DNA of 42,467 nucleotides from Myxococcaceae bacterium JPH2 (GTDB taxonomy: Bacteria; Myxococcota; Myxococcia; Myxococcales; Myxococcaceae). A model generated the notes under the pieces. It saw nothing but the letters and a program-made list of their open reading frames with translations. It was not told the DNA's origin and made no database searches. Below, one piece after another: positions 3 to 35,239 of this stretch. How positions within the stretch are numbered: the first letter of the stretch is position 1; each line of letters begins with the position of its first letter. Where the stretch lies: the NCBI GenBank assembly GCA_016458225.1, contig JAEMGR010000033.1, forward strand, positions 1 through 42,467. Reading direction: 5' to 3'. The translations under genes were made by a program, and so were the position numbers.

Positions 3-461
3 CAGCGGCTCCACACGCGCTCGGGCCCGCCCACGCCGGACGACTTCGACGAGCTGCTCTGCCGGCGCAGGAAGTCGCGCTTCTTCCTGGCCCACCCGCG
101 CGCCATCGCCGCGTTCGGCCGCGAGTGCACCCGACGGGGCATCTATCCCATCGAGGTGGAGGTGCAGGGCCGCAAGGTCATGGCGTGGCGGGGCGTTCCC
201 ATCCTGCCGTGCGACAAGCTGCCCATCACCGAGGAGCGCACCACGTCCATCCTCGTGCTGCGCACCGGCGAGGCGGATCAGGGCGTCATCGGCCTGCACC
301 ACACGGGCCTGCCGGACGAGGTGGAGCCCGGCCTCTCCGTGCGCCGGATGGACGTGAGCGAGAAGGCCATCACGTCCTACCTGGTCAGCACGTACTTCTC
401 CGCGGCCCTCCTGGTCCCCGACGCGCTCGGGGTCCTGGAGAACGTGTCGCTGGGAAGCTGA
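3..461 (+). CDS. Family 2 encapsulin shell protein, C-terminal part (5' end outside window)
   Basis: Frame open from the left edge; the first full codon is at 3 and the TGA is at 459-461, giving about 152 residues. What is seen: a stretch beginning TPDDFDELL, then [68 protein letters not shown] and a tail ending [11 protein letters not shown]. These match my recollection of the HK97-fold C-terminal half of family 2 (SrpI-type) encapsulin shells. Known role of the family: self-assembling protein nanocompartments that load a cargo such as a cysteine desulfurase or terpene synthase. The cargo gene and any cyclic-nucleotide-binding insertion would lie upstream, out of view. The gene converges on the prolyl-AMP ligase gene and probably marks the cluster border; nothing seen ties it to the pathway. 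The phrase-level match makes the family call good, but the subtype cannot be decided. Confidence 0.82.
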
Positions 462-471
462 GTTGTCCTCG

Positions 472-503
472 GGCCGAGCGCGGTCAGTCCTCCGCGCTCG
501 GCC
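472..503. terminator. Perfect 12-bp GC-rich inverted repeat between convergent genes
   Basis: Arms GGCCGAGCGCGG (472-483) and CCGCGCTCGGCC (492-503) are perfectly complementary around an 8-nt loop. The hairpin sits 10 nt after the encapsulin stop, and its right half is the last codons of the minus-strand ligase gene. No U-tract follows on either strand, so it would be a GC-only stem. Its position between two converging genes fits a bidirectional transcription stop; this is inferred from structure only. Confidence 0.55.
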
Positions 504-1983
504 GCTGCACGCGCTCCGTCAACGCGCGGCGGTCCAGCTTGCCGTTCTGCGTGCGCGGCAGCTCCGACAGCACGCGCACCTCGTCGACAATCATGTAGCG
601 GGGCAGGCGCTCCGCGCAGTGCTTCTTGAGCTGGAGCAGGGACGGAGGTCGCGGGCTGGGGCTCACCACGCACGCGACGAGCCGCGCCTCCAGTCCGCTG
701 CCGCGCGCGACCACGCCCACCGCCTGGACGTCCGGGTGGGTGAGGAGCGCCGCTTCAATCTCTCCGGGCTCGATGCGCCGGCCGCGCACCTTGAGCATGC
801 TGTCGCGCCGGCCGACGTACTCGAAGGCGCCGTCCGGGAGCTCGCGGCACAGGTCTCCCGTGGCGTAGGGACGGTCTCCCTGCGGTGGGTGGCCCCAGTA
901 GCCCCGCATCACCGTGGGCCCCTCCACCATCAGCTCGCCCAGCTCCTCGCCCTCGGCGCGCGCCAGCCACACCCGGTCGCCGCAGCTCGCGAGGCCGATG
1001 GGGACGGGCTCGGTGCGCTCGGGGGCGATGTCCTTCACCTCGTGGAACGTGCACACGTTCGTCTCGGTGGGACCGTAGAGGTTGAAGCACCGTGCTTGTG
1101 GCAGGTGCTCTCTCAGCGGGCGCAAGTGCTTGATGGGGAAGGGTTCTCCCGCGAAGAGGACCGCGCGGAAGGGCAGGTCCGCGTGCTCCAGCAAGCCGCC
1201 CTCGCGCATCATCAAGATGAGGGCCGAGGGCACCGAGTACCAGACGGTGAAGCGCTCGCTCTGGACGAACTCCACCAGCTTCCGGGGCGCGAAGGCGAGC
1301 GCCTCGGGGATGAGCGTCACCGAGGCGCCGCCGAGGAACGCCGCGTAGAGGTCCAGGACGGACAGGTCGAAGTAGAAGGGCGCGTGGTTGCTGAAGCGAT
1401 CCTCGGGCGTCGTCCCGAGAAGCGCGTGGCACCACTCGATGAAGGCCAGCGCGTTGCGGTGGCTGATGCACACGCCCTTGGGCGTGCCCGTGGAGCCCGA
1501 CGTGTAGAGGATGTACGCGAGCGCGTCCTCCTCGAGCCCGTGAGGTGGCACCGGCTCCGCGGAGCGGGCGGAGAGCTGTCCCCACGCGAACCCCGGCCCG
1601 GTGTCATCCACGAGGAGCAGGCGCGGGGGCGCGCGGCCCTCGACGCTCAAGTCGCCCGCGCGCGAGGCGGACGTCACCACCACCTGGATGCCGCAGTCCT
1701 CCACGATGCGCAGGGTCCGCGAGGCGGGGCTGTGCGGATCCAACGGCACATACGCCGCACCGAGCCTCGCGATGCCCTGCATGGCCGCCACCGCGCGCGC
1801 GGACTTCTCCGTCCAGAGGCCCACCCGGTCGCCCCGCTGGACGCCCAGCTCGAGGAGGGCTCGGGCCACGCGGTTGGCGAGCGCGTCGAGCTGGCCATAG
1901 GTGAGCGTCTCGTCCGGACCCTTCACCGCGACGGACGTGGGGAACCGCGCGGCCGAGCGGCGCACGATGTCGTCGAGTCTCAT
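484..1983 (-). CDS. L-prolyl-AMP ligase (PltF/RedM-like stand-alone adenylation enzyme) for a pyrrole starter
   Basis: About 499 residues, the usual length for a free-standing adenylation enzyme. It activates an amino acid as its adenylate and loads it on a carrier protein. Seen: A3 YTSGSTGTPKG (about 160-170), A4 around FDLSVLDLY (about 205-213), A5 NLYGPTE (about 301-307), A7 YATGDL, and A10 NGKLDRR with the catalytic Lys near the C terminus. The ten-residue specificity code read by hand is D-L-L-Y-L-A-L-V-C-K. As I recall it, this is the code of the proline-activating ligases of pyoluteorin, undecylprodigiosin and aminocoumarin pathways (PltF, RedM, CloN4). The ATG at 1981-1983 overlaps the stop of the dehydrogenase gene (ATGA), so the two are translationally coupled. 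No carrier protein lies beside it; the partner may be the ACP of the gene at 3255 or one encoded elsewhere. Confidence 0.9.
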   Translation of the reverse strand: MRLDDIVRRSAARFPTSVAVKGPDETLTYGQLDALANRVARALLELGVQRGDRVGLWTEKSARAVAAMQGIARLGAAYVPLDPHSPASRTLRIVEDCGIQVVVTSASRAGDLSVEGRAPPRLLLVDDTGPGFAWGQLSARSAEPVPPHGLEEDALAYILYTSGSTGTPKGVCISHRNALAFIEWCHALLGTTPEDRFSNHAPFYFDLSVLDLYAAFLGGASVTLIPEALAFAPRKLVEFVQSERFTVWYSVPSALILMMREGGLLEHADLPFRAVLFAGEPFPIKHLRPLREHLPQARCFNLYGPTETNVCTFHEVKDIAPERTEPVPIGLASCGDRVWLARAEGEELGELMVEGPTVMRGYWGHPPQGDRPYATGDLCRELPDGAFEYVGRRDSMLKVRGRRIEPGEIEAALLTHPDVQAVGVVARGSGLEARLVACVVSPSPRPPSLLQLKKHCAERLPRYMIVDEVRVLSELPRTQNGKLDRRALTERVQRPSAED

Positions 1984-3119
1984 AGGCCCAGGTTGCTCGC
2001 GATGATGTCCCGCTGGATTTCCGACGTGCCGGAGAACAGCGTGCTGGGAATGGTGTCTCGCAGCACCCGTTCGATCCCCGTCTCGGACACGTAACCCATG
2101 CCGCCGTGGATCTGGATGGCATCCAGGCCGCACTGCACCGCCGCCTCGCTGATGGCCAGCTTCGCCAGCGACACCTCCATCGCCGCGTCCTCGCCCCGGT
2201 CCATGCGCCAGCACGCGCGGTACAGCAGCAGGCGCGAGGCCTCCAGGCGCTGCTTCATGTCCGCGAGGCGGTGCGAAATGGCTTGGTTCTTGCCGATGGC
2301 GCGCTTGAACTGCTTGCGCTCGCGCGCGAAGTCCACCGTCTGTTCGAGCACGCGCTCCATGAGCCCGACGTAGCCGCCGAACAGGCACGCGCGCTCCCAC
2401 TGCATGGAGCGCTTGAAGAGGGGCGCGCCCTGACCCTCCGCGCCGAGTCGCGCCGCCTCGGGGACCTGGCAATCCTCCAGGTAGATGGGCGCGATGGGCG
2501 AGGTGGACAGGCCCATCTTCTGGAACGGCTTGCCCACGGTGAGGCCCGGCGTGCCCTTGTCCACGAGGAAGGCGCTCAGGCCCATGTACCCGTGGGATGG
2601 GGCCGTGACGGCATAGACGAGGAACACGTCCGCGACGGGGCCATTGGTGACGTAGCTCTTCGTGCCATCCAGCACGTAGCCCGAGTCCGTGCGCCGCGCG
2701 CGCGTCTGGAGCGCGAAGACATCCGAGCCCGCCTCGGGCTCGGAGATGGCATTGGCGCCCACCCATTCCCCAGAACACAGACGCGGCAGGTAGCGTGCCT
2801 TTTGTATGTCGTTACCACCTTCGAGGATGGGTAATACGCACGCGAACAAGTGCGCCCCCACGGAGAACACGAGCCCTGTATCGGTGCAGCCGCGCCCCAG
2901 GGCCTCCATCAGCCGCGCCGTCGTCAGCGCATCCAGTCCCAGTCCTCCATAGCGCTCGGGGATGGGCAGCCCCAGGAAGCCGAACGCTCCGCAGTGGCGC
3001 CACTGCTCCAGGAAGAGCCCCGGTCCCGACCGCGGATCCGTCAGCCTCGCCTTCGCGAAGGCGAGGGCACGCTCATAGAGATCCGTCTGCTCGCGCGTCC
3101 AATCGAAGTCCATGCGCAT
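1980..3119 (-). CDS. L-prolyl-S-carrier dehydrogenase (PltE/RedW-like acyl-CoA dehydrogenase fold flavoprotein)
   Basis: 379 residues, full length for the family. It would take carrier-bound prolyl to pyrrolyl-2-carboxyl by FAD-dependent four-electron oxidation. Seen: NAISEPEAGSD (about 123-133) for the FAD/substrate loop, DGTKSYVTNG (about 151-160), WERACLF (241-247), GKNQAISHRLADMK, QIHGGMGY and the C-terminal SGTSEIQ. The usual C-terminal base Glu of medium-chain dehydrogenases is Ser here (FSGTS). The Glu of WERACLF (E242) sits where isovaleryl-CoA-type enzymes and, as I recall, PltE keep theirs. First gene of the two-gene minus operon, with its stop overlapping the ligase start. Two ATGs are possible (3119 and 3113): the second would begin MDFDW, like PltE, while an AGG four bases upstream favours the first. 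Paired with the ligase the function is well supported. Confidence 0.9.
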   Translation of the reverse strand: MRMDFDWTREQTDLYERALAFAKARLTDPRSGPGLFLEQWRHCGAFGFLGLPIPERYGGLGLDALTTARLMEALGRGCTDTGLVFSVGAHLFACVLPILEGGNDIQKARYLPRLCSGEWVGANAISEPEAGSDVFALQTRARRTDSGYVLDGTKSYVTNGPVADVFLVYAVTAPSHGYMGLSAFLVDKGTPGLTVGKPFQKMGLSTSPIAPIYLEDCQVPEAARLGAEGQGAPLFKRSMQWERACLFGGYVGLMERVLEQTVDFARERKQFKRAIGKNQAISHRLADMKQRLEASRLLLYRACWRMDRGEDAAMEVSLAKLAISEAAVQCGLDAIQIHGGMGYVSETGIERVLRDTIPSTLFSGTSEIQRDIIASNLGL

Positions 3120-3254: not shown

Positions 3255-5459
3255 ATGCGGTGTGAGTCAATTGCGGTGGTCGGGATGGGATTCCGACTTC
3301 CTGGGGCGGATTCTCCTCGGACTCTCTGGAACAACCTATGTGACGGGTTGGATGTGACTGGTGATATCCCGCCAGAGCGCTGGGGCGTTGGTCTGTTTCA
3401 AGCCATGAATTCAGACGCCGCGGGTCGGATCCGCGGGCGGCGCGCGGGGCTGGTGTCAGACGTGGACGCCGTGGATGCCAATGCCTTTCGGCTCTCCAAG
3501 CGTGAGCTGCGGCAGATGGACCCGCAGCATCGGATCCTCTTCGAGTGCGCGTGGCACGCCCTGGAGGACGCGGGCCTGCCGCTGGAGGGCCTGCGCGGCA
3601 GTCGGACGGGCGTCTTCGTCGGCAGCAACTTCAACGACTTCCAGCGGATGCTGGCCCGCGACTGGGCGGCGCTGGATGGCTACTCCTTGTTGGGCACCAC
3701 GCCCGCCTTCGCCGCCAACCGCATCTCCTACGCGTTCGACCTGCGAGGGCCGAGCACCTGCTCGAGCGTGGGGTGCGCCTCGTCCACCGTGGCGGTGCAC
3801 GAGGCCTGCCGCAGCCTGCTCCTGGGCGAGGTGGAGCTGGCGCTCGCGGGCGGGGTGGAGCTGATGCTCTCGCCCGACAGCAGCATCATGCTGTCGCAGG
3901 CCGGTGTGTTGTCTTCCACTGGACAGTGCCGGACGTTGGATGCGGGCGCGGACGGCTACGTGCGCGGCGAGGGCGCGGGGATGATCGTCCTCAAGCGCCT
4001 GTCCCAGGTGGCGCCGGGGGAGCGCGTCTACGCGGTCATCCGCGGCGGCGCGGTGAACCACAACGGCCGCAACGAGTGGTTGATGGCCCCGAGCGTGGAG
4101 GCGCAGGCTGACGTCATCCGGCAGGCCTGTGAGCGGGGCGGGGTGGCGCCCGCCAGCCTCGACTATGTGGAGCTGCACGGCTCGTCCTTCCTCAAGGGGG
4201 ACGCGGCCGAGGCGCTCGCCATCGGCCAGGTGCTGGGTGGCCAGCGCGCGGCACCGTGCCGGCTGGGCGCGGTGAGCAACAACCTGGGCTACCTGGGCGC
4301 GGCGGCGGGCATCGCCCAGCTCATCAAGGTCTGCCTGTCGCTCTGGCACCGGACGCTGCCGCCCACCATCCATGTGGACGCGCCCAACCCGCTCATCCCC
4401 TTCGAGGAGCTGGGCCTGAGCATCCAGACAGGACGCGAGGCCTGGCCTGTCCCGGCGCTGGGTGAGCCGCGACGCGCGGGTGTCGTGTCCACCTCCTTGG
4501 GCGGCGCCAATGCCTTTCTCGTGCTGGAGGAGGCCCCCGCGCGCCCACCCCAGACGTCTCCCGATGCTTCCGTCGAGGCCCACCTGCTGGTGTTCTCGGC
4601 GCAGTCGCCCGAGGGGTTGATCGCGCGTGCGCGACAGCTTCGTGACTTCCTCGTGGAGACGGACGAGGCCGAGGCGCGGCTCGTGGATGTTTGTTTTACC
4701 GCGGCCCTGAAACGCCAGCACCACCGCCACCGCGTGGCGATGGTGGGGAGCAGCCGTGCGGGATTGGTGTCGCGGCTCGAGGATTTCCTACTCAATCCCG
4801 CGCAGACGCGTTGGGTGGAGCAAGGCCAACCAACCTCACTGGTTGAGGCGTCAGAGACCTTTGTTGACTCGGGATATGTTTCGCGAGAAGTCTTTCTCGT
4901 GGGTGGTGGGGCCTGCGTGAGTCTTCCAATTCATCCCTTTCAGAGACAGCGTTTGTGGCCGGAATGGCTGACGCCCGAGGAGGTGTCTCGTGCGCCCGGC
5001 TCGGTCCGCGCCCCCGTGCCCGCCGCGGCGCCCGTGCCCGAGCGCCCGGGTGCCACGGACTACCGCGCGGGCACTCCCGCGGAGCGTGAGGCCCGGCTCG
5101 CGGACTTCCTGCGCGCGCAGCTCGCGGAGGTGCTGGAGCTGGAGGTGGCGTCGCTGGACACGCGCGCGCGGACCTTCTTCGAGCTGGGGCTCAACTCCCT
5201 GGGCGTCGCGCAGCTCAAGGCGCGCATCACCGGGGCGCTGGGCATCGCGATGTCGGCGACGGTCCTCTTCGAGCACCCCCGGTTGGACGCGTTGGCGTCG
5301 CGCCTGCGCGCGCTGATGGATGACACGCCGGCGGCTGTTCCCGAGGGCTCCCACGGCGAGGAGTGGGCGCTGGTGGAGCGCATCGCGGGGCTGTCCGAGG
5401 AGCAGGCGCGCGAACTGATTGCCCGGAAGCTGGCGGAACTCACCATCGAGGTCGGATGA
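3255..5459 (+). CDS. PKS module remnant: atypical KS - (AT deleted) - ACP
   Basis: 734 residues. KS about 4-425: active Cys kept in an altered context (GCASS, C174), first His kept (ELHGSS, H308), but the second His of the usual NIGH motif is Tyr (NNLGY, Y346) and the preceding Lys is Ser. Loss of that His usually goes with a KS that transfers chains without decarboxylative extension. The KS-AT linker is present (about 445-510), then only about 45 residues precede the post-AT linker LPIHPFQRQRLW (557-568), where an AT would add about 300. ACP about 612-690 with FFELGLNSLG, Ser 648. The C-terminal helix (GLSEEQARELI) looks like a docking element. ATG 3255 is the only possible start, since an in-frame TAG lies at 3240-3242; no strong ribosome site is seen. 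First gene of the plus operon, its stop overlapping the next start. Likely accepts and passes on the pyrrolyl starter. Confidence 0.85.
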   Translation: MRCESIAVVGMGFRLPGADSPRTLWNNLCDGLDVTGDIPPERWGVGLFQAMNSDAAGRIRGRRAGLVSDVDAVDANAFRLSKRELRQMDPQHRILFECAWHALEDAGLPLEGLRGSRTGVFVGSNFNDFQRMLARDWAALDGYSLLGTTPAFAANRISYAFDLRGPSTCSSVGCASSTVAVHEACRSLLLGEVELALAGGVELMLSPDSSIMLSQAGVLSSTGQCRTLDAGADGYVRGEGAGMIVLKRLSQVAPGERVYAVIRGGAVNHNGRNEWLMAPSVEAQADVIRQACERGGVAPASLDYVELHGSSFLKGDAAEALAIGQVLGGQRAAPCRLGAVSNNLGYLGAAAGIAQLIKVCLSLWHRTLPPTIHVDAPNPLIPFEELGLSIQTGREAWPVPALGEPRRAGVVSTSLGGANAFLVLEEAPARPPQTSPDASVEAHLLVFSAQSPEGLIARARQLRDFLVETDEAEARLVDVCFTAALKRQHHRHRVAMVGSSRAGLVSRLEDFLLNPAQTRWVEQGQPTSLVEASETFVDSGYVSREVFLVGGGACVSLPIHPFQRQRLWPEWLTPEEVSRAPGSVRAPVPAAAPVPERPGATDYRAGTPAEREARLADFLRAQLAEVLELEVASLDTRARTFFELGLNSLGVAQLKARITGALGIAMSATVLFEHPRLDALASRLRALMDDTPAAVPEGSHGEEWALVERIAGLSEEQARELIARKLAELTIEVG
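4771..4980 (+). other. Low-GC scar where the AT domain is missing
   Basis: Inside the KS-ACP gene, the stretch joining the KS-AT linker to the post-AT linker drops to about 56% G+C (hand count over 4861-4980), against about 70% in flanking coding sequence. The encoded residues (about 506-556) match no AT motif: there is no GQG, GHSxG or HAFH. The frame is open throughout, so this is a tolerated in-frame loss and not a frameshift. Confidence 0.6.
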
Positions 5460-8400
5460 TGAATCGCAAGGACGGCGTGGGCTCGGAGCTGACTCCCCTC
5501 CAGCAGGCCCTGCTCACCATCGAGAAGCTCCAGCGCAAGCTGGTCGCGGTCACCTCGGGGAGCGAGGACGCCATCGCCATCATCGGCATGGGGTGTCGCT
5601 TCCCGGGCGGGGCCTCGGGGACGGCGCGCTTCCGCGAGCTGCTGTGGGGCGGGCGCGAGTCGGTGGTGGAGGTCCCGGCGGAGCGCCGCTCGCTGCAGGG
5701 CATTCATGATCCGGACCCCGCGGCTCCCGGCAAGTCCACGCTGCGCCGGGCGGCCTTCGTGGACGGGGTGGAGCGCTTCGACGCGGAGTTCTTCCGCATC
5801 TCGCGGCGCGAGGCGGAGGGGATGGATCCGCAGCAGCGCTTCTTCCTGGAGGTGTGCTGGGAGGCGCTGGAGGACGCGGGGCTGCCGCCGCACGCGCTGC
5901 GAGGAACGCGAACCGGCGTGTTCGCGGGCGTCCACGCTCGGGACTACGCCCTCATCGCGGAGGGCGGGTTGGAGAAGGTCGGCGCGCACTACTCGTCCGG
6001 AGTGGATGCCAGCTACGTCCCGGGTCGCCTGTCGTATCTGCTCGGGCTCGAGGGCCCGAGCCTGGCGGTGGACACCGCGTGCTCGTCGTCGCTCGTCGCC
6101 GTGCACCTGGCGTGTCAGAGCCTGCATGCGGGGGAGTCGACGGTCGCCATCGCGGGGGGCGTGAAGCTGCTGCTGGCCCCGCACCTCAGCGTGTTCCTCA
6201 CCAAGGCGGGCGCGCTGTCTCCCTCGCAGCGGTGCCGCGCCTTCGACGCCGCGGCGGACGGCATGGTGCAGGGCGAGGGCTGCGGGGTCGTCATCCTCAA
6301 GCGCCTCCGGGACGCCGTGCGCGATGGGGACCGAGTGCTCGCCACGCTGCGCGCGACGGCGATGAACCACGATGGCGCGAGCGGGGGCCTCACGGTCCCG
6401 AACGTCCGCGCCCAGGAGTCGCTCTATCGCCTCGCGCTCCAGCGCGCCGGCATCGAGCCCGGCCAGGTGGACTACCTGGAGGCCCACGGTACGGGCACGC
6501 GGCTGGGTGACCCCATCGAGTTGGAGGGCGTGGCGCGGGTGTACGGGGCCGGGCGCGCTCCCGAGCACCCGCTGTGGATGGGGTCGCTCAAGCCGAACAT
6601 CGGACACACGGAGGCCGCGGCGGGGATCGCCGGGCTCATCAAGGCGGTGTGCATCCTCCAGTCCGGGACGATTCCTCCGTCGCTCCACTTCGAGCACCCG
6701 ACGCCGGAGTTCTCCTGGGAGGGCTCGGGGCTGGCCGTCGTCCGCGAGCACACGCCGCTTGCGCCTCAGGGCCGCGCGCACCGCGTCGCCGTCAGTTCCT
6801 TTGGCATGAGCGGCATGAACGCGCACGCCATCGTCGAGTCCTATCGCGAGGCACCCTCGGCGCACCTCGATGCGGGGCCCTACCTCCTGCCCTTGTCGGC
6901 GCGGAGCGAGGCGGGGCTTCGCGAGCTGGCGGGCACGTGGCTGCGCCAGCTCACCGAGGTGCCGGACGCGAACCTTCGTGACGCGTGCTTCACCGCCGGC
7001 GCGGGGCGCTCGCATCACGAGCATCGCATGGCGCTCGTGGCGCAGACGCCCGAGGCCCTGCGGGCCCTATTGCGCAGCGCGGCCGAGGGGCGCGGCGGCG
7101 CGGGCATCCACCGAGGTTCGCTCACGGGCGCGCCACCGAAGGGCGTGACGTTCATCTTCGGCGATGACGTCGAGCAGGTGGATGGGCTCGTGCGGGAGCT
7201 GCTTGCTCGGGACCCTTCCTCGATGCGGCAGCTCGAGGGGCTGGACGCCGCGTTCCGCCGGGTGGCGGGCTGGTCGGTCTCCGAGCACCTGGCGCGCGGA
7301 AGTCGCGGGCCCCAGGCCGCGGATGTCCGAGCGCGAGGCACGGGTGTCCTGCTGGCGTGCCAGCTCGCGCTGGTCGCGTGGTGGCGCGCGTGCGGCGTCG
7401 AACCGCTGGCCGTCGCGGGGCATGGCGCGGGCGGAATCGCCGCGGCGGTCGTCGCTGGGTTGCTCACGGAAGAAGAAGCGATCCGTCTGGCGCTGCGCCT
7501 GCCGGACCCCGAGCCCCTCCTGGCTCGCACCGCGCGCTGCCACTTCTTCTCCTTCGCGGAGGAGTCGTGGCTCTCCGAAGGCGCCATGCCGCCCTCGGGC
7601 AGGTGGGTGCGCGAGGCGGTGGCCTCCGAGTCGCCGGATTGGGACCTGGTGGCCGAGCATCTGGTGGCGCGTGACTTCGCCTCCGTCTTCCTGGAGGTGG
7701 CGTGTGGTGAAGCGCTCGCGGACGCGCTGGACGCCTCCGCGCGGCGACGCGGTCGCGAGGTGCTCGTCCTCAAGGGGGATCCGCGAGACGGCGGCGAGGT
7801 GCTCCAGGGCGTGCTGACTCGGGCCGCGCGCGTGTACTGCGCGGGGCTCACCTTGCGCTTCGACTACCTGTTCCCCGAGGCGCGCAAGGTCTCGGCTCCG
7901 ACGTATCCCTGGCAGCGCGAGCGTTACTGGTGGGATGGCCAGCGCGAGGCGCCGCGCGTCGTGTCGTCTCCGACTCCAGACGTGTCCGCGCGTTGGGAGG
8001 GGCTGCTCTGGGACCTGGTGTGGCGTCCTCGGGAGGTTGCTCCTGAGTCGACGAAGCGGGGCGGGCGCTGGCTCGCCGTGACGGAGAACCTGGAGGCGGC
8101 GCGTCCGCTTCGCGAGGCCTGGGGGACGGAGCACGGCGAGCTGGTGGTGGCGTGCGCCGGGCCCACCTCCGCGCGTGCGACGCCGGGCGAGCACCGGGTC
8201 GACTTCGGTCAGGGCGCTTCCTTCGCGCGAATGCTGGATGAGGTGGTGGCCTCGGGCGAGCCACTGCGTGGCGTGCTCTTCCTGGCGAGTCAGGACCCAC
8301 TGGAAGAGTCCGCACCCCGGGGCGCGGCGGCGCGGCGTCAGGCCGTGGCGTTCACTTTCCTGGTCCAGGCGATGGCGCGCACCGCGCTGCCGGGCGCTCC

Positions 8401-9832
8401 CCGGCTGGTGCTCGTCACCCGAGGCGCACAGGAGGAGGACGGCGCGACGGGGCCGCTGTCGCTCGCGGGCGCGTCGCTCTGGGGGCTGGCCCGTGTGCTC
8501 GCGCACGAGCACTCCGAGCTGCGGTGCAAGCGGGTGGACCTGGATGCGCGACCCGGCATGGAGGCGTTGCGCGCGCTCCCCGGGGAGCTGGCGATTCCAG
8601 CGGCGAGTGACGACGACGAAGTGAAGCTTCGCGGGGGGCAGCGATTCGTCTCCGCGCTCATTCCGGGACAGCGCGCCGTGGGCGCCACGGGCGCGTTCCG
8701 TCCGCGCGCGGATCGGACCTACGTCGTCACGGGGGGCCTGGGTGGCATTGGCCTGCGGCTGGCCCAGTGGTTGGTCGCGCAGGGCGCGCGTCACGTGTCG
8801 CTGTGGGGCCGCTCAGGCGAGAGCGCGCAGGCTCGCGAGGTGCTGGCATCGCTGCGCGCGACGGGGGCTCGCGTGGAGACGCGCCGGGTGGACGTGGGCC
8901 AGCGCGACGCCGTGGCGGAGGGGCTCGACGCGCTTCGGCGCGGAGGTCCTCCGTTGGGGGGCGTCTTCCATTGCGCGGGCGTGCTCGCGGACGCGTCGTT
9001 CCTGCAACTGGAGCCCGCTGCCTTCGACACGGTGATGGGGCCCAAGGTGGATGGCGCGTGGAACCTCCACACGCTCGTCACGGACGCCACCGTGGAGCAG
9101 TTCGTCCTCTTCTCCTCGACGGCGGGGTTGGTGGGCTCGCCCGGACAGGGCAACTACGCCGCCGCCAACGCCTTCCTCGATGCCCTGGCCCGCTTCCGCC
9201 GCGCGCGGGGGCTGCCGGCGGTCAGCCTCCAGTGGGGAAGCTGGGGCGAGGTCGGCATGGCCGCCACGGACGCACGGCGCGGCGAGCGACTCGCCGAGCG
9301 AGGCATGTCGCCGATGTCCGTGGACGAGGCGCTGGGCGTGATGGCCGTCACGCTCGCGGACGCTCCGGTCAACCGCGGCATCGCGCGCTTCGACCCGAAG
9401 CGCTGGGCGCACGCCCATCCCGCCATCGCGGGCAGCGCGCTGTTCCGCGAGCTGCTGCCCACGGCGGAGCAAGGCGCCGCGACGGGGACTCCGCGCAAGC
9501 TGCGCGAGGTGCTGCTGGCGCTGGAGCCAGACGCCCGCGCCCGCGCGCTGGAGGCCCGGCTCAAGGAGATGATCGCGGAGGTCAGCCGCGTGGCCCCCGA
9601 GCGGCTGTCGTCCACCGACTCGTTCGAGGCGCTGGGGTTCGACTCCATCATGGCCCTGGAGCTGCGGGACCTGGTGCTCGCCGAGCTGGACGTGGGGCTG
9701 CCGCTCAAGAGCTTCGTGGATGAGCACTCCATCGCGCAGGTGGTGGCGGAGCTGCTGGAGCGGCTCGCGGTGGCGCGGGTGCTGACCGCGGGGGCCTCGG
9801 AGCGCACGGATACCAAGCGGGTGCTGCTATGA
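5456..9832 (+). CDS. PKS module: KS - inactive AT - KR - ACP
   Basis: 1458 residues from the ATG at 5456, which overlaps the previous stop; a second ATG follows at 5459. N-terminal coiled docking helix about 12-33. KS about 36-460 is intact: DTACSSS (C209), EAHGTGT (H344), NIGHTEAAAG (H384). The AT region (about 565-800) is short and decayed: the GQG motif is replaced by FIFGDDVEQ, the nucleophile motif reads GHGAGG (Gly 657 in place of Ser), and the HAFH/YASH segment is gone; the post-AT linker APTYPWQRERYW remains. KR about 1085-1270 looks active, with TGGLGGIG, SST, Tyr 1234 and Asn 1238 of NYAAAN. ACP with GFDSI, Ser 1397. No DH or ER. It would extend by one unit and reduce to a hydroxyl if malonyl is supplied from elsewhere. 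Its C terminus should dock to the TubC domain of the next protein. Confidence 0.9.
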   Translation: MMNRKDGVGSELTPLQQALLTIEKLQRKLVAVTSGSEDAIAIIGMGCRFPGGASGTARFRELLWGGRESVVEVPAERRSLQGIHDPDPAAPGKSTLRRAAFVDGVERFDAEFFRISRREAEGMDPQQRFFLEVCWEALEDAGLPPHALRGTRTGVFAGVHARDYALIAEGGLEKVGAHYSSGVDASYVPGRLSYLLGLEGPSLAVDTACSSSLVAVHLACQSLHAGESTVAIAGGVKLLLAPHLSVFLTKAGALSPSQRCRAFDAAADGMVQGEGCGVVILKRLRDAVRDGDRVLATLRATAMNHDGASGGLTVPNVRAQESLYRLALQRAGIEPGQVDYLEAHGTGTRLGDPIELEGVARVYGAGRAPEHPLWMGSLKPNIGHTEAAAGIAGLIKAVCILQSGTIPPSLHFEHPTPEFSWEGSGLAVVREHTPLAPQGRAHRVAVSSFGMSGMNAHAIVESYREAPSAHLDAGPYLLPLSARSEAGLRELAGTWLRQLTEVPDANLRDACFTAGAGRSHHEHRMALVAQTPEALRALLRSAAEGRGGAGIHRGSLTGAPPKGVTFIFGDDVEQVDGLVRELLARDPSSMRQLEGLDAAFRRVAGWSVSEHLARGSRGPQAADVRARGTGVLLACQLALVAWWRACGVEPLAVAGHGAGGIAAAVVAGLLTEEEAIRLALRLPDPEPLLARTARCHFFSFAEESWLSEGAMPPSGRWVREAVASESPDWDLVAEHLVARDFASVFLEVACGEALADALDASARRRGREVLVLKGDPRDGGEVLQGVLTRAARVYCAGLTLRFDYLFPEARKVSAPTYPWQRERYWWDGQREAPRVVSSPTPDVSARWEGLLWDLVWRPREVAPESTKRGGRWLAVTENLEAARPLREAWGTEHGELVVACAGPTSARATPGEHRVDFGQGASFARMLDEVVASGEPLRGVLFLASQDPLEESAPRGAAARRQAVAFTFLVQAMARTALPGAPRLVLVTRGAQEEDGATGPLSLAGASLWGLARVLAHEHSELRCKRVDLDARPGMEALRALPGELAIPAASDDDEVKLRGGQRFVSALIPGQRAVGATGAFRPRADRTYVVTGGLGGIGLRLAQWLVAQGARHVSLWGRSGESAQAREVLASLRATGARVETRRVDVGQRDAVAEGLDALRRGGPPLGGVFHCAGVLADASFLQLEPAAFDTVMGPKVDGAWNLHTLVTDATVEQFVLFSSTAGLVGSPGQGNYAAANAFLDALARFRRARGLPAVSLQWGSWGEVGMAATDARRGERLAERGMSPMSVDEALGVMAVTLADAPVNRGIARFDPKRWAHAHPAIAGSALFRELLPTAEQGAATGTPRKLREVLLALEPDARARALEARLKEMIAEVSRVAPERLSSTDSFEALGFDSIMALELRDLVLAELDVGLPLKSFVDEHSIAQVVAELLERLAVARVLTAGASERTDTKRVLL

Positions 9833-12800
9833 CTCTGGACGCGCTCCTTCAGGCGCTGGCGGCGCACGGCATCACCCTGGCCGTGGAGGGTGAGCGGCTC
9901 GCGGTCGACGCGCCCTCTGGCGAGATTCCCGCCGCGCTGCGCGAGCAGCTCGTGGCGAACAAGGCGGAGCTGCTGGCCCTGCTGTCCCGCCAGGGCCGCG
10001 CGCCCGAGGCCCCACCCGAGGTGGTGGCGCGTCCCGAGGAGCGGCACGAGCCGTTCCCGATGACCGAGCTGCAGCAGGCCTACAGCGTGGGCCGTCAGTC
10101 CGAGCTGGAGCTGAACGCGTCCATGCACGCGTACAACGAGCTGGACTGCCAGGCGCTGGACGTGGCGCGGTTCGAGGAGGCGTGGAACCAGGTCGTGGCG
10201 CGCCACGAGATGCTGCGCGCGGTGGAGGTGCCCGGCTTCCAGCAGCGCATCCTCCCCAGCGTTCCTCGCTACGCGCTCCCGGTCGAGGACTTGCGCGGGC
10301 GCGGCGCCGAGGAGACCGAGGCGCGCCTCGCCGCCATCCGCGAGCGTCTGTCTCAGCAGGTGCACTCGCTGGACACGTGGCCGTTGTTCGAGCTGCGGGT
10401 CTGCCTGCTCGACGATGACCGCGCACGGCTGTTCATGAGCATCGATGGCACGTTCATCGATGGGTACAGCTTCCAGATTCTCTACCGCGAGCTGGTGCAC
10501 TTCTATCAACACCCCGAGGCGGTCCTCACGCTGCCGCCCCTCGCGCTGTCGTACCGCGACTACTCGCTCGCCGTGAATGGCGCGCGCGGGGCCCGCCATG
10601 CCCGCTCGCTGGCGTACTGGCGCGAGCGGCTGGCCCGGCTCCCTCCCGCGCCCGACCTGCCGATGGAGAAGGAGCCGCGCACGCTGCGGCGCCCGCGCTT
10701 CCGTCGCTGGTTCGCGCGCGTGGAGGCGGAGGAGTGGCAGCAGCTCAAGCAGCGGGCCCGAGCGCGTCGACTGACGGAGCCGGAGCTGCTGCTGGCGGCC
10801 TACGCGGAGGTCATCGCGCACTGGAGCCGCAGCCCGCGCTTCACCCTCAACGTCCCGCACTTCAACCGCCTGTCCATCCATCCGCAGGTCAACGACATCA
10901 TCGGGACCTTCGCCAGCTTCACGCTCGTGGAGGTGGACCACCGCCCGGAGCGCACGTTCACCGAGCGCGCCCACGCCATCCGAGATGAGCTGCTGCTCGC
11001 GCTGGAGCACCGCGAGGTCAGCGGCGTGGAGCTGCTGCGCGAGCTGTTCCGGGCCCAGGGCCGCATCTCCGGCGCGCTCATGCCCGTGGTGATGACGAGC
11101 TTCGCGTCCCACTCCAAGAGCCGGGACTCGCACTGGGTGGACTTCCTGGCCGAGTCCTTCGGAGGGCTCGTCGAGGCGCTGACGCAGACGCCGCAGGTGT
11201 GGATCGACCTGCAGATCGTCTACCAGCGCGGCGGTGTCTTCCTGAACTGGGACGTGGCCGAGGAGCTGTTCCCGCCCGGGATGTTGGAGGACATGTTCAA
11301 TGCCTTCCGCGCGCTCCTGCACCAGCTCGCGGAGGACGACGCGGCGTGGTCGCGCAAGGACCTGGAGGTCATCCCCTGGCGGCAGCGCGAGGTGCTGGCC
11401 CGCGTCAACGACAACGCGCTCCCCTTGAGCGGGGCGCTCTTGCACACGGGGTTCTTCCGCAACGCCGCCGAGAGGCCCAACGCGCCCGCGCTGGCGACCT
11501 CCGAGGGAACGCTTACCTATGGCGAGCTGAGCCGGCGCGCCAGCCGACTCGGGCGGGAGCTGCGCGAGCGGGGCGCGACGCCCAACCGCGTCGTCGCGGT
11601 GGTGATGGAGAAGGGCTGGGAGCAGATCGTCGCGGTGCTCGGCATCCTCAGCTCGGGCGCCGCGTACCTGCCCATTGACGCGGGGCTGCCGCCGGAGCGG
11701 CGCGCGTACATGATCCGCAATGGCGGCGCCGAGCTGGTGGTGACCCAGCCTCGCTTCGCCTCGCGGGAGTGGCCCGAGGGCTTGCAGGTCCTGGCGCTCA
11801 CGCCCGACGCGTTCTCCGCGCACCGCGACACGCCGCTGGCGACCCTCCAGCGTCCCGAGGACCTCGCGCACATCCTCTACACGTCGGGCTCCACGGGGCA
11901 GCCCAACGGCGCGATGCTCACGCACGCGGGGATGGTCAACGCCATCGAGTGGACCCATCGCCGCTTCGGCGTGGGACCGGATGATCGGCTCATCGCCCTG
12001 AGCGCGCTCCACCACGACTTCTCCGTCTATGACGTCTTCGGCACCTTGAGCGCGGGTGGCCTCATCGTGCTGCCGGATGCGGCCCGACGCAGAGATCCCG
12101 CGCACTGGGTCGAGCTGATGGCCCGTCATGGCGTCACGGTGTGGAGCACCGTGCCCGCGATGATGGAGATGCTGCTGACGTACCTGGAGGGCGGCAACGT
12201 TCGCCTCGGGTGCCCGCTGCGGCTGGTGATGCTGGGCGGGGATTGGATCCCCGTGACGTTGCCCGCGCGACTGCGGGCTCGGTTCGGCGGCGTGAAGCTC
12301 GTCAGCGTGGGCGGGCCCACGGAGACGTCGCTGTGGAACATCACCCACCCGGTGGAGGAGGCGGACGAGCGCCGCCGCAGCATCCCCTACGGCAAGCCCA
12401 TCGCGAACACGCGGTACTACGTGATGGACGAGCGGTTGGCGGAGCGACCGCTCTGGGTTCCAGGTGAGCTGTGCTGCGCGGGCATCGGCGTGGCGCTCGG
12501 CTACGTGGGCGCGGGCGCTGGGTCCGCGAAGTTCACCCTCCACCCGCGCACCGGTGAGCGCATCTACCGCACGGGCGACCTGGGACGGTATCTGCCCGAT
12601 GGGACCATCGAGTTCCTCGGCCGCGTCGACTTCCAGCTCTCCATCCGTGGGCAGCGGATTGAACCGGGCGAGATTGAGGCGGCGCTCCACCGCGAGTCGA
12701 GCCTGCGCGCGGCCGTGGTCGGCGCGGTGGGAGAGCACCACGAGAAGCGCCTCGTCGCCTACGTCGTCCCAGCGGAGGGTCACAAGGACGTCGACACGCG

Positions 12801-15800
12801 GCGCATCCGCGAGTCCCTGGCGCGCTCGCTGCCCGAGCACATGGTGCCGGCGACCTTCGTGGTGCTGGACGAGCTGCCGCTGACTCGCAACGGGAAGGTG
12901 GACCGGCGTGGACTGCCACACCCGGACGCGGTCGCGCGCCCGCTGCGTGTCTCGGAGCCCGCGCCGGTGTCGCGGGTTGCCTCGGGCGAAGCGCGCGAGC
13001 TGACGGCGGGGTTGGCCAAGGCCGTGGGCGAAGTGTTGGGCGTGCCTCCCGTGCAGCCGGATCGGAACTTCTTCGAGCTGGGCGCCAACTCGGTGCACCT
13101 CATCCAGCTCCACTTGCGGCTCAAGGCGTCGCTGGGGGTCTCGGTTCCCGTCGTGGAGATCTTCGGCAACCCCACCGTCCGGGCGCTGGCCCGACACCTG
13201 GGGGCCTCGGGGGTGGAGGAGGGCGCCGCAGCTCCGAGCCTCGGCGCGTCGGTGCCCGCGGCCGGAGAGCGGGACATCGCCATCGTCGGCATGAGCTGCC
13301 GGTTGCCTGGGGCGCCTTCGCTGGAGGCGTTCTGGAACAACCTGGTGAACGGCATCGAGTCCGTTGCCGCGTTCAGCGATGACGAGCTGCGCGCCGCGGG
13401 CGTGAGCGCGGCGGCGTTCCGCGACCCTCGCTACGTCCGCGCCTCGGCGGTGCTGGAGGGGCATGACACCTTCGACGCCGACTTCTTCTCCCTGACGCCT
13501 CGCGAGGCGCGCGCGTTGGATCCGCAGCAGCGCGTCTTCCTGGAGTGCGCCTGGGAGGCGATGGAGCACGCGGGCCTGCTCCCCGGAAAGGGAGACGCTG
13601 TCGTCGGGGTCTACGCGGGCAAGAGCGTCAGCCACTACCGCTACCCGTACCCGGACCTGACGCGCCCGCTGAACTTCTTCCAGGACCTCATCTCGCAGGA
13701 CAAGGACTTCCTGGCCACGCAGACGTCCTACAAGCTCGACCTGCGCGGCCCGAGCGTGAACGTGCAGACGGCGTGCTCGACGTCGCTCGTCGCCGTGTCG
13801 ATGGCCTGCGACGCGCTGCTCAACGGGAGCTGCGATGTGGCGCTCGCGGGGGGCGTGGCCATCAAGGTCCCGCACGCGGTCGGCTACCTGTTCGAGGAGG
13901 GGAGCATCTTCTCGGGCGATGGCCACTGCCGGCCGTTCGATGCCCGAGCGAACGGAACCCTCCCGGGGAGTGGCGCGGGCGTCGTCGTGCTCAAGCGCCT
14001 CAGCGACGCGCGTGCTCACGGTGACACCGTCCTCGCGGTCATCAAGGGCACCGCCATCAACAACGATGGACACCGCAAGGTGGGCTTCATGGCGCCCGGT
14101 GTCGAGGGGCAGGCGGACGTCGTGCGCCGTGCCCATCAGCGGGCCGGTGTGGAGCCGCGCTCCATCTCCTACGTGGAGGCCCACGGCACGGGGACCGCGA
14201 TCGGCGACCCCATCGAGGTCGCGGCGCTCACGCGTGCCTTCGCGGGCGAAGCGGGCTCACGCGCCTGCGGGCTCGGCTCGGTGAAGAGCAACATGGGACA
14301 CCTCGACAGCGCGGCGGGCATCGCCGGGTTGATCAAGGTCGTGCTGTCGCTTCAGCACCGGACGTTGCCGCGCTCGCTCCACTTCGAGTCGCCCAACCCG
14401 AACATCGACTTCCAGAGCGGTCCCTTCTACGTCGTCGCCCAGAACCAGCCGTGGACCGCGACCGAGGGGCCGCTGCGCGCCGGGGTCAGCTCGTTCGGCA
14501 TCGGAGGCACCAACGCGCACGTGGTGCTGGAAGAGGCCCCCGCGCCCGTGGCGGCCGTGGCCTCGGAGGCTCGGGCCGAGCGCTCGCGGCACATCCTGAC
14601 GCTGTCCGCGCGCAGCGAGGCGGCGCTGCGTCAGCTCGCGGGGCGCTATCGCGAGCGGCTGGACTCCACGGAGGACGTGCTCGCGGACCTCTGCTTCTCC
14701 GCGAACACCGGACGGACGACCTTCGAGCATCGGCTCGCGGTGGTGGGGGTGGATCGCGCGCATCTGTCCACGCTGCTCAGCTCGGCGGAGCGTCAGGAGG
14801 AGCGACCTGGGCTGGTGCGTGGCGTGCCCGACCTCAAGCAGTCCGCGAAGGTCGCGTTCCTGTTCTCGGGGCAGGGCTCCCAATACGTTGGCGTCGCGCG
14901 CGAGCTGTATGCGACGCACCCTGGCTTCCGTCAGCGCCTCGATGCGTTCGATGCACTGCTGCGCGGAACGTGGACACGCTCGCTCCAGTCGGTGCTCTAC
15001 CCCGCGCCGGGGGAGGACTCGGTCCTCGATCAGTTCGACCACGCGCAGCCCGCGCTCTTCGCGCTGGAGTACGCGCTGGGCGAGCTGTGGATGTCCTGGG
15101 GCGTGATGCCGGATGTCCTGCTCGGCCACAGCACCGGCGAGCTGGCGGCTGCGTGCCTCGCGGGCGTGATGAGCGTGGAGGACGGACTGAAGCTGGCGGT
15201 GCACCGCGGCAGGCTGATGCACCAGCTCCCCGAGGGTGGAAACCTCGCGGTGTCGGCGAGCGAGGCCCAGGTGCGTGAGGTCCTCGCTCAAGGAGGCTGG
15301 GCCATCGGTGTCGCGGCGCTCAACGGGCCCGACAACGTCGTGGTGTCGGGCCCTCCCGAGGAACTCGCCGCGGTGACGCAGGCGATGGAGGCGCGTGGCT
15401 TCAAGGTCCGGCGCCTGAACATCCCGCGCGCGGCCCACTCGGTGATGGTGGAGCGCATCCTGGAGGAGTTCCGCGCGGTCGCTCGGACGCTGACCTTCTC
15501 GCTGCCGAAGCTTCCGATGGTCTCGGGCATGACGGGAGCGCCCATCACCGAGGCCATCGCGACCCCTGACTACTGGTGCGCGCAGCTTCGCGAGCCCGTG
15601 CGCTTCGCGGACGGCGTGCAACGCCTCTACCAGGACGGCGCGCGTGTCTTCGTGGAGATCGGCCCCAAGGCCACGCTGCTCGGCATGGCGGCGCGGTGCG
15701 TGCCCGAGGGCGAGTGCGCCTTCTTGCCGAGCCTGAAGCCCGAGGACGGAGGTTGGCAGCAGCTCCTGGAGAGCGCCGCGGGACTGTTCGTCCGGGGCGT

Positions 15801-18742: not shown

Positions 18743-21700
18743 ATGTCCGCGCACCCGAGCGATACCGGCTACGGCGACCTGATGAAGCGCGCGCTCCTGA
18801 AGCTCCAGGAGGCGCAGTCGCGCCTGGATGCCCATGAGCGTGCGAAGCACGAGCCCATCGCCATCATTGGGATGGGGTGCCGCTTCCCCGGCGGCGTGAC
18901 GACGCCCGAGCAGTACTGGCGACTGCTGAGCGAAGGGCGGGACGCCATCACGGAGGTCCCCGCCACGCGATGGGACGTGGACAGCTTCCATCACCCGGAC
19001 CCGGACGCGCCGGGCCGCGTCTCCAGCCGCTTCGGCGGGTTCCTGGACCGCATCGATCAGTTCGAGCCGCGCTTCTTCGGCATCTCTCCGCGTGAGGCGG
19101 CGCGGATGGATCCGCAGCACCGGCTCTTGCTCGAGTGCACCTGGGAGGCGCTGGAGTCCTCTGGCCGGAATCCCACGTCCCTGCAGGGCACGCGCACCGG
19201 CGTGTTCATCGGGATGATGGGGCAGGACTACACGCAGATCGCCACGCAGTCCCCCGAGCTCATCGATGCCCACACGGGAGCGGGCAATGGCGCGAGCGTC
19301 GCGTCGGGACGGCTCTCGTACACGTTCGGGCTCCAGGGCCCCAGCCTCACGGTCGACACGGCGTGCTCGTCGTCTCTCGTCGCCGTCCACCTCGCGCTGC
19401 GCAGCCTGCGCCAGCAAGAGGTGGACTTCGCGGTGGCGGGCGGCGTGAACCTCGTGCTGTCGCCGGTGGCGTCGTTGATTGAATCGCGCGCGCACATGCT
19501 GTCGCCGGATGGGCGCTGCAAGGCGTTCGATGCGTCGGCCAACGGGATTGGCCGGGGCGAGGGCTGCGGCGTCATCGTGCTGCGGCGCCTGTCGGATGCG
19601 ATTGCGCACGGTGACCCCATCGTCGCGGTGCTGCGCGGCTCGGCCGTCAACCAGGATGGCCGGACCAGCGGGCTCACCGTCCCCAACGGGCTCGCGCAGC
19701 GACAGGTCATCCAGGACGCGCTGAAGGACGCCCGCGTGGATGCCTCGCAGGTGGGCTACGTGGAGGCGCACGGAACGGGGACGGCGCTGGGGGATCCCAT
19801 CGAGCTGGAGGCCCTGGCCGCTGCCTACGGAGACAAGGCCGCGCGAAGCCAGCCGCTGGTGGTGGGCTCGGTGAAGACGAACCTCGGCCACCTGGAGGGC
19901 GCGGCGGGCATCGCTGGGCTCATCAAGTCCGCGCTGTGTCTGTCGCGCGAGCGGATTCCCGCGCACCTCCACCTGCGCAATCCCTCGCCGCACGTGGACT
20001 GGAATCGCCTCTTCATCGAGGTGCCCACCACGCCGCGAGACTGGCAGGCCGGCGAGCCTCGCTTCGCCGCGGTCAGCTCCTTCGGGTTCTCCGGCACGAA
20101 CGCCCACCTCATCCTGGAGTCCGCGCCGAGGCCCGCGCAGTCCGCCGTGCACGAAGAGCGGCCCTGGCATCTGCTGGGTCTGTCGGCGCGCACGGTGGGG
20201 AGCCTGCGGACGCTCTCCGGTGACGTGGCGAACGTGCTGGGCGCGGAGCACCTGGGCACGCTCGCGGAGGTGTGCCACGCGGCCAATGTGGGCCGCACGT
20301 CGCTGGAGGAGCGCGCGGCCTTCATCGCGCCCACGACCGCGTCCATGGCCGAGGCGCTGCGCGGCTTCCAGCAAGGACTGGCCACGGAGCCCGGTGCCTG
20401 GGTCCAGGGACGCAAGGGCCTGGAGGTACCGCGCCTCGCGTTCCTCTTCTCCGGGCAGGGCGCGCAGTACGTGGGCATGGGGCGCGAGCTGTTCGCCACG
20501 CATCCTGACTTCCGGAGCGACCTCCTCCGGTACGAGGCCATCCTGCGGCCTCACCTGGAGCGTCCACTCACGCAGGTGCTCTTCGAGGCGCGCGACGGAG
20601 CCCTGGACGAGACGCGCTTCACCCAGCCCGCGCTCGTCGCGCTGGAGCTGGCGCTGGCGCGACTGCTCCAGTCGTGGGGGCTTCAGCCGGACGCGCTCCT
20701 CGGGCACAGCGTGGGCGAGTACGCGGCGGCGCTGTTCTCGGGCGTGATGGAGCCCGAGGAAGGCCTGCCGCTCGTGGCCGAGCGCGCGCGGCTCATGCAG
20801 GCCCTGCCCGAGCGCGGGACGATGCTCGCCGTCCTCGCGGACGAGGCGCGCGTGGCCCCGTTGCTCAGCGCCTATCCCCGCGTGTCCCGCGCGGCGCTCA
20901 ATGGCCCGCGCAACACGGTGCTGTCCGGAGATGCGGCCTCGCTCGATGCCCTGTCGCGGACGCTGGCCGCGGAGGGAGTCGAGTGCCGACGGCTGAAGGT
21001 CTCTCACGCCTTCCACTCGCCCCTGATGGAGCCGATGGTCGCGGACTTCGAGCGCGCGGCGGGGCGCGTGGCCATGCGGACATCACGCATTCCGCTCATC
21101 TCGAACCTCGACGGAGAGGAGGGCGGCGAGGCGATGGCGCGTCCAGGCTACTGGGCGCGGCATGTGCTCGCGCCGGTGCGGTACGCGGCGGGCATCCAGA
21201 CGCTCGTGCGGCGCGGGGTGCGTGCCTTCCTCGAGGTGGGGCCCAAGCCTGTCCTCGTGGGGCTGGCGCGCGAGGGCCGCGTGCCCGAGGACGCCGTGTG
21301 GCTGGAGACGCTTCATCCCCGCCGAGGGGACTGGCAGGGGCTGCTGCGCTCCCTCGCGGAGCTGTACGTCCGAGGCGTCGAAGTGGACTGGACCCGCTTC
21401 GATGGTGCTCCGACGCGGCGGCGCGTGTCGTTGCCTACCTATCCGTTCGAGCGACAGCGTCACTGGCTGGAGGTGCCCGCGCCGTGGGCGCGTCAGGCGC
21501 CTCGTTCATCCGCGCATCCTTTGCTCGGGGCGCGATGGGACTCGATGGCGCTGCGCGAGGGCACCACGGTCTTCGCGGGTGAGCTGCGGGCCAGCTCGCT
21601 TCCGTTCCTGAGTGAGCACCGCGTGCATGGCAAGGCAGTGGTCCCCGCCACGGCCTTCGTGGAGATGGTGGCCTCGGCGGCGGCGCGGGTGCTCGGCTCG

Positions 21701-24290: not shown

Positions 24291-29779
<5,489 letters not shown>

Positions 29780-29783
<4 letters not shown>

Positions 29784-35193: not shown

Positions 35194-35239
35194 AGCCCGC
35201 GGTCCGTACCCGAGCGTGAGTGAACACAGGAGCCGTGGA

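Follow-up and report, generated by a model that had tools for sequence, protein, structure and literature searches.

A ketosynthase-carrier protein without an acyltransferase as a probable starter relay in an assembly line of DKxanthene type

Introduction

A 42,467-nucleotide stretch of contig JAEMGR010000033.1 from Myxococcaceae bacterium JPH2 (here called the window) encodes polyketide synthase (PKS) and nonribosomal peptide synthetase (NRPS) modules, and at the start of this assembly line stands a protein made of a ketosynthase (KS) and an acyl carrier protein (ACP) with no acyltransferase (AT) between them. What can such a KS-ACP protein contribute to the line if its KS lacks residues needed for extension? 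We consider it likely that it is a starter relay of a DKxanthene-type line, in which a pyrrolyl group would be passed from carrier to carrier unextended.

DKxanthenes are yellow pigments of myxobacteria. Passages of the literature describe them as composed of asparagine, polyene, oxazoline and pyrrole (PMC4902038), place the dkx locus at MXAN_4289-4305 (PMC3986340) and report the cluster from Myxococcus and Stigmatella (PMC12766979). Because orthologous loci occur in Myxococcus and the gene content fits a product of this composition, the present locus is almost certainly a DKxanthene (dkx) cluster.

Architecture and active-site residues of the KS-ACP protein

The KS-ACP gene is a single open frame (Table 1). 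By Pfam, its product holds KS-N (residues 4-251), KS-C (259-374), a linker domain (about 443-512) and a PP-binding domain (618-683), with no AT match at an E value of 0.001. The full order is KS, KS-AT linker domain, 41 residues at the place of the AT, post-AT linker, ACP and a short helical tail. An earlier sequence-only reading of this DNA had put about 45 residues where an AT would be; the short stretch between two linkers stands, and the count is corrected to 41. Automatic alignment of this scar with whole modules was uninformative, and its limits were set otherwise. The module 1 gene begins at 5456 and overlaps the KS-ACP stop. The C-terminal tail of KS-ACP and the N-terminal helix of module 1 presumably belong to a docking class, and on that assumption we count the pair in favor of a relay.

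The KS keeps its nucleophile, Cys174, and the His of the HGTGT motif, His308 (the motif now reads HGSSF), but has Ser341 at the position of the catalytic Lys and Tyr346 at that of the NIGH His. Codons and 23 of 23 orthologues agree with the earlier description of a KS that has Cys174 and His308 and has lost the NIGH His; the Lys-to-Ser change is an addition to it. A retained Cys, Lys replaced by Ser and NIGH His by Tyr (23/23), and a kept HGTGT His form a combination that qualifies the domain as a predicted KS0, or non-elongating KS. A transfer-only KS, as proposed in the sequence-only reading, is thus supported by Ser341 and Tyr346 in 23/23 with Cys174 kept, and the argument rests on these residues, not on the clade. 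KSQ loading domains have a Gln instead of the active-site Cys; with Cys174 in all 23 orthologues and no Gln, this KS does not match that type.

An AlphaFold2 (AF2) model of residues 1-575, made from an input of 29 mixed KS rows, has a mean predicted local distance difference test (pLDDT) score of 81.6, with 274 residues scoring at least 90; an earlier model from eight close orthologues (mean pLDDT 39.7) was left unused. The top solved match of the KS model in Foldseek is the CurL KS-AT didomain (4mz0).

Fixation and selection

A profile made from eight KS-ACP orthologues was run against 195 Myxococcota genomes and gave 23 matches above 1000 bits, in 23 of the genomes, with the next match at 535 bits. 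All 23 orthologues are open frames without an internal stop, and all have both the carrier Ser and the C-H-S-Y signature (Cys, first His, Ser for Lys and Tyr for the second His); Cys174 is invariant although TGC and TGT codons both occur. Seven of the best-scoring non-orthologues (one per genome) are every one C-H-K-H, and among 158 gathered KS domains (duplicates included) C-H-S-Y is confined to 30 dkx-type rows. Because the signature is present in 23/23 orthologues, chance or sequencing error is excluded as its source.

Purifying selection acts on the KS of KS-ACP as it does on the intact KS of module 1. The median pairwise ratio of nonsynonymous to synonymous substitution rates (dN/dS) is 0.188 for the former and 0.158 for the latter; these and the other dN/dS values given here are pairwise, with branches shared between pairs, and are descriptive only. 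As its value is near that of the intact module 1 KS, the KS of KS-ACP performs some function. The AT scar has a median of 0.425, and the dead AT of module 1 (see below) one of 0.555.

Ancestry of the KS

To build a KS tree, the 158 KSs were reduced to 77 by removing rows at least 85% alike to a kept row, and then to 60 by removing long or odd rows (L041, L042, L044, L134, L136 and L159) and 11 rows of represented clades. In the 60-row tree, the sister of the KS of KS-ACP (the dkx KS) is a KS from Brasilonema, with support of 100/99. The pair has a long branch of its own and lies inside a larger group with cis-AT modules of the same line. Among the four nearest ordinary rows, an AT motif follows L006, L015 and L025, and the contig stops after L014; when ten ordinary KSs were sampled from the tree, eight were followed by a GHSxG[EQ] AT motif, L014 being the one that ends with its contig and L016 having no motif.

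Two other placements were rejected by the approximately unbiased (AU) test. The module 1 KS as sister of the dkx KS gave a p-AU of 6.4e-5, and a clade with KSs of the same genome that read C-A-K-H or C-N-E-H gave 3.9e-5 and 2.9e-66, in a comparison of three KS0-like rows, from which L159 was dropped for its long branch. Grouping with KS0 domains of trans-AT type, a placement that the tree was meant to check, is therefore rejected. These KS0-like KSs of the window genome look trans-AT, since the 155-179 kb stretch of contig C16 that holds them has no AT match and a free AT gene lies at 126.9 kb.

The position of the dkx KS among cis-AT KSs is as deletion of an AT from a cis-AT module predicts, and both linkers remain around the 41-residue scar, in keeping with the domain deletion first suspected from the sequence. 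These results support the view that the KS-ACP gene descends from an ordinary cis-AT module, KS-AT-ACP, whose AT was deleted, and that its origin is independent of the trans-AT KS0 domains.

A sister protein in Brasilonema

The sister KS belongs to QDL19052, a KS-AT(dead)-ACP protein on plasmid pBOCT1 of Brasilonema octagenarum. Like KS-ACP, it retains its active-site Cys and is encoded beside a homologous acyl-CoA dehydrogenase (62% identical to that of the window), ligase (59%) and carrier (34%); a P450 and an FAD enzyme are further neighbours. In contrast to KS-ACP, it keeps Lys and the second His and has lost the HGTGT His (now Asn), still has an AT remnant, and is followed by an NRPS as the next large gene, with no module 1 between. 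The remnant is shortened and reads GDGLGE for GHSxGE (Ser to Gly); with the nucleophile Ser lost, this AT cannot supply malonyl. Two KSs with the same neighbour genes have thus lost different condensation residues and, in both cases, AT function, and both have kept the Cys.

The two KSs also share 12 residues that are rare (below 5%) in 66 ordinary KSs, any one of which shares at most four. Two of the 12 are gating-loop positions, Asn270 at that of the loop 2 Asp and Ser414 at that of the loop 1 hinge Gly, which are Asp265 and Gly399 in FabF according to passages of PMC7138838; the mapping was made via a FabF-like protein of the window genome.

The probable carrier of proline

The sequence-only reading saw KS-ACP as a possible entry point for a pyrrolyl starter. 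The adjoining genes, which match a solved prolyl-carrier ligase and solved dehydrogenases, support this. They lie upstream of KS-ACP and divergent from it, with the ATG of the ligase gene overlapping the dehydrogenase stop. The ligase noted earlier at 484 is borne out, although the real gene is shorter than the 764-residue open reading frame; its match, 6o6e, is titled 'L-proline--[L-prolyl-carrier protein] ligase' in the PDB. The best match of the dehydrogenase is 6cxt ('butyryl-CoA dehydrogenase', E 3.9e-118), followed by the prolyl-ACP dehydrogenase 4irn (E 2.4e-113) and the L-prolyl-[PCP] dehydrogenase 5zw0 (E 3.7e-112).

On which carrier, then, is proline loaded? A stand-alone PltL-like carrier was found in all 23 genomes with KS-ACP (5/5 plus 18/18). 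It shares a contig with KS-ACP in 20 of them, about 37-47 kb away, and is on another contig in the window genome, G152 and G156. The copy in the window genome matches solved PltL (E 8.5e-9) and the carrier-like chain of 6cxt (E 1.2e-11), the other chain of which is the best match of the window dehydrogenase. Against a profile of the window's five other PKS ACPs the fused ACP reaches 42.8 bits, versus 6.1 bits against a profile of seven stand-alone carriers, whose own members score 130-145 bits; by this measure it does not belong with the PltL-type prolyl carriers. With a stand-alone carrier in 23/23 and a PKS-type fused ACP, the separate carrier is most likely the one that receives proline, with KS-ACP downstream of it. 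Of the two routes offered earlier, loading of proline on the fused ACP is disfavored by these findings, and a relay from a separate carrier fits them.

Other pyrrole-type loci were also seen. A second cassette in the window genome (L125; contig C21, about 101.8-105 kb; dehydrogenase 51%, ligase 45%) has its own carrier and adjoins another PKS-containing cluster. No KS-ACP occurs within the 19 kb read around a cassette in genome G019 (L116; dehydrogenase 67%, ligase 56%), and no C-H-S-Y KS within the 31-41 kb read at each of five plasmid-set loci of pyrrole type, two of them unannotated.

Module 1 and its dead AT

The KS of module 1 is C-H-K-H in 23/23. In its AT, Gly replaces the nucleophile Ser in all 22 readable sequences, the 23rd being cut by a contig end; the remnant has no GQG motif and spans 215-252 residues between fixed points. 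This dead AT is a new point of the present analysis. As the KS and the ketoreductase (KR) look intact, we suggest that module 1 extends; if so, its malonyl would have to come from elsewhere, since its own AT is dead. Candidate sources would then be the ATs of later modules or free AT genes of the genome, which are present as frames of 315-377 residues on contigs C16, C19 and C30. According to passages of PMC10204065, a CalA module has been acylated in trans in vitro. The dead AT leads us to predict that module 1 depends on malonylation in trans.

A proposed relay and its alternatives

We infer every chemical step of the relay from the gene content, residues, fixation, selection and tree described above. 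The ligase would load L-proline onto the separate PltL-like carrier, encoded at the far end of the cluster, and the dehydrogenase would convert the prolyl group to a pyrrolyl-2-carboxyl thioester. The pyrrolyl group would then move onto Cys174 of the KS and from there, unextended, onto the fused ACP; no extension is expected because the Lys and second His needed for decarboxylation are gone. The fused ACP would pass the group to the intact KS of module 1, where one malonyl supplied in trans would be added, followed by KR reduction and the Cy-A-PCP module. The path from Cys174 through the fused ACP to module 1 is modelled on KS3 of HtmA1 (Cys-Asn-His, hangtaimycin), which, in passages of PMC8456789, passes an acyl group from one ACP to another with no extension and yields no product as a C155A mutant.

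Several points weigh against this relay. The fused ACP has a dN/dS of 0.583, twice that of the module 1 ACP (0.285), and a dN of 0.314 versus 0.200 (1.6-fold); the residue preceding its carrier Ser is Asn or Ser, and its role could be weaker than the relay assumes. Loss of the second His with the HGTGT His kept differs from the KS0 pattern in the passages of the sources consulted and in the KS0-like domains of the same genome. The Brasilonema sister is one sequence. Nor is a relay chemically needed, since in pyoluteorin and calcimycin synthesis the pyrrolyl-carrier is delivered straight to an extending KS, according to passages of PMC10204065. Finally, the dkx KS lies among cis-AT KSs that mostly extend, a position that the sequence-only reading had named as evidence against a transfer-only KS. 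The tree is divided on this point: the dkx KS stands on a long branch of its own with another His-deficient KS, and because this sister likewise lacks a catalytic His, ancestry does not refute a transfer-only function.

That position in the tree could mean that the KS still extends, with Tyr346 and Ser341 replacing His and Lys or with help from module 1, and that KS-ACP is a normal module given malonyl in trans. The retained Cys and first His would agree with this, as would a neighbouring module likewise without a working AT; yet with Lys and the second His lost in 23/23, a catalytic His also lost in the sister KS, and the gating-loop Asp and hinge Gly changed, we regard continued extension as very unlikely. 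It is similarly improbable that the fused ACP is itself the prolyl and pyrrolyl carrier, acted on by the ligase and dehydrogenase, with the KS as a scaffold. The proximity of those two genes and the carrier Ser in 23/23 speak for it, but every KS-ACP genome has a stand-alone PltL-like carrier, the profile scores of the fused ACP favor the PKS type, and selection holds the KS and its Cys, which a mere scaffold would not need.

The looser constraint on the fused ACP would also suit a gatekeeper or proofreader, in which the KS mainly selects oxidised pyrrolyl over prolyl groups or hydrolyses wrong starters and transfer to the ACP is secondary. The KS of PltB module 1 is selective for the pyrrole starter in passages of PMC10204065, and both sister lineages have altered loops above the active site; against it, the carrier Ser is kept in 23/23. 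We give such a role little probability as the main function, though it can coexist with a relay. The same looser constraint, together with the deleted AT, might mark KS-ACP as a relic, a decaying module kept for gene order or docking only. This is scarcely credible for 23 open frames without an internal stop, a KS dN/dS near that of the intact module 1 KS, and an active-site Cys that is invariant under both TGC and TGT codons.

Relation to known systems

The relay we favor resembles KS3 of HtmA1, a KS0 of a trans-AT dehydrating bimodule, in that the Cys is kept, a catalytic residue is lost and an acyl group would go to a partner ACP (passages of PMC8456789). The dkx KS differs in its signature (Cys-His-Tyr with Lys to Ser, not Cys-Asn-His), its cis-AT ancestry and its place at the start of the line. 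As in pyoluteorin (PltL to PltB) and calcimycin (CalN3 to CalA) synthesis, a pyrrolyl-S-carrier would prime a type I PKS, and the carrier and ligase of the window genome match solved PltL and its ligase complex. In those two systems, as passages of PMC10204065 describe them, the extending module 1 KS is loaded directly, whereas the dkx line would put a KS0-ACP protein between.

We lean somewhat toward a broader reading, in which the entry to the DKxanthene line is an AT-free island in a cis-AT line, made up of a KS0 relay and a module 1 malonylated in trans by a free-standing transferase or the AT of another module. On this reading, the transfer-only loading KSs would share a single pyrrole-loading ancestor of cis-AT type, and myxobacteria and cyanobacteria would have lost different catalytic residues. 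The dkx cluster and its product are already known; what may be new, though possibly known in part, is a KS0 that descends from cis-AT stock, has a novel set of active-site residues and sits at a loading position. The searched passages that name DKxanthene hold no statement on the KS of KS-ACP; the main dkx papers lay outside that search, and absence from print is not shown.

The findings suggest that a cis-AT module may give rise to KS0 function at the loading end, by losing Lys and the second His and not the HGTGT His. As a natural two-carrier adaptor, KS-ACP would let a starter made on a free carrier enter a cis-AT line with no need for an AT, and this would be useful for starter-unit engineering. 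If this is true, predictors that count one extension per KS-ACP miscount the cluster by one.

The dkx cluster and its surroundings

Five named Myxococcus records, with M. xanthus AM003 among them, hold KS-ACP orthologues at 64-69% identity, and Citreicoccus inhibens has one at 93%; another is in a record titled 'Comamonas sp. KCTC 72670', a title that is probably wrong. With the known dkx cluster (BGC0000986) the locus shares an orthologous KS-ACP, and its pyrrole cassette, putative Cy module, polyene-type modules, Asn-like A domain and thioesterase (TE) fit the DKxanthene composition. Three KS-AT-DH-KR-ACP modules are present, one of them within the Cy-module protein (Table 1). The condensation domain of that protein has the motif DGTFIDGYS, which fits DxxxxDxxS, the pattern that we take to mark Cy domains. 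In the last A domain, read by hand, six of nine positions fit a code taken to specify Asn.

Table 1. Positions of KS-ACP, its parts and other genes in the window
Feature	Position	Strand	Basis or remark
KS-ACP protein P0001 (probable relay)	3255-5459	+	single open frame, 734 aa
Non-elongating KS domain (predicted)	3264-4535	+	residues ~4-427; Pfam, AF2 model
Cys174, nucleophile kept	3774-3776	+	codon read; 23/23 orthologues
Asn270, gating loop 2 Asp position (D265 of FabF)	4062-4064	+	codon read and mapping
His308, kept; HGTGT position, now HGSSF	4176-4178	+	codon read; 23/23
Ser341, catalytic Lys position	4275-4277	+	codon read; 23/23
Tyr346, NIGH His position	4290-4292	+	codon read; 23/23
Ser414, gating loop 1 hinge Gly position (G399 of FabF)	4494-4496	+	codon read and mapping
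KS-AT linker domain, residues 443-512, kept	4581-4790	+	CurL-like_PKS_C, RhiE-like linker
AT deletion scar, residues 513-553 (41)	4791-4913	+	looser constraint
Post-AT linker CVSLPIHPFQRQRLWPEWLTPE, from residue 554	4914-4979	+	strongly conserved; median dN/dS 0.061
Fused ACP, PKS type	5091-5330	+	carrier Ser648 at 5196-5198, 23/23
Helical C-terminal tail, docking-domain-like	5370-5456	+	
Stand-alone prolyl adenylation enzyme (L-proline:carrier ligase)	484-1983	-	PDB 6o6e, E 1.5e-147
Prolyl-carrier dehydrogenase (pyrrolyl thioester former, predicted)	1980-3119	-	Pfam acyl-CoA dehydrogenase and PDB matches
Module 1: KS (C-H-K-H) - dead AT remnant - KR - ACP	5456-9832	+	docking-like N-terminal helix
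TubC docking - Cy-type condensation - A - PCP - KS - AT - DH - KR - ACP	9829-18735	+	
KS-AT-DH-KR-ACP module	18743-24283	+	
KS-AT-DH-KR-ACP module	24291-29783	+	
C-A-PCP-TE	29780-34090	+	A-domain residues near a presumed Asn code
Type 2A encapsulin shell protein, SrpI-like	3-461		cut by contig start
Patatin-like protein	34057-35193		
ArsA/Get3-like ATPase with HSP20-like domain	35216-36313		
B12 radical-SAM C-methyltransferase	39690-41714		TIGR03975

Two proteins of the cluster in the window genome have no orthologue in 60-kb stretches of three other dkx clusters, namely a B12 radical-SAM C-methyltransferase and an additional KS-AT(dead) protein. The methyltransferase, between PKS genes, scores 573 bits against a TIGR03975 cut-off of 282 and is also present in genome G001. 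The extra protein (L057; contig C50, 21754-24606, minus strand, a 951-residue frame) has an intact KS and an AT in which Ser is replaced by Gly (GFGTGE); it is 92% alike in G001, and its best matches within the three other dkx clusters are other modules, at 45-47%.

At the edge of the window, an encapsulin gene is convergent with the prolyl ligase. Downstream of the assembly line, the patatin-like protein resembles a CBASS phospholipase model, under its cut-off, and is kept in the three other dkx clusters at 65-68%; the ArsA/Get3-like ATPase is present in the same three at 46-50%.

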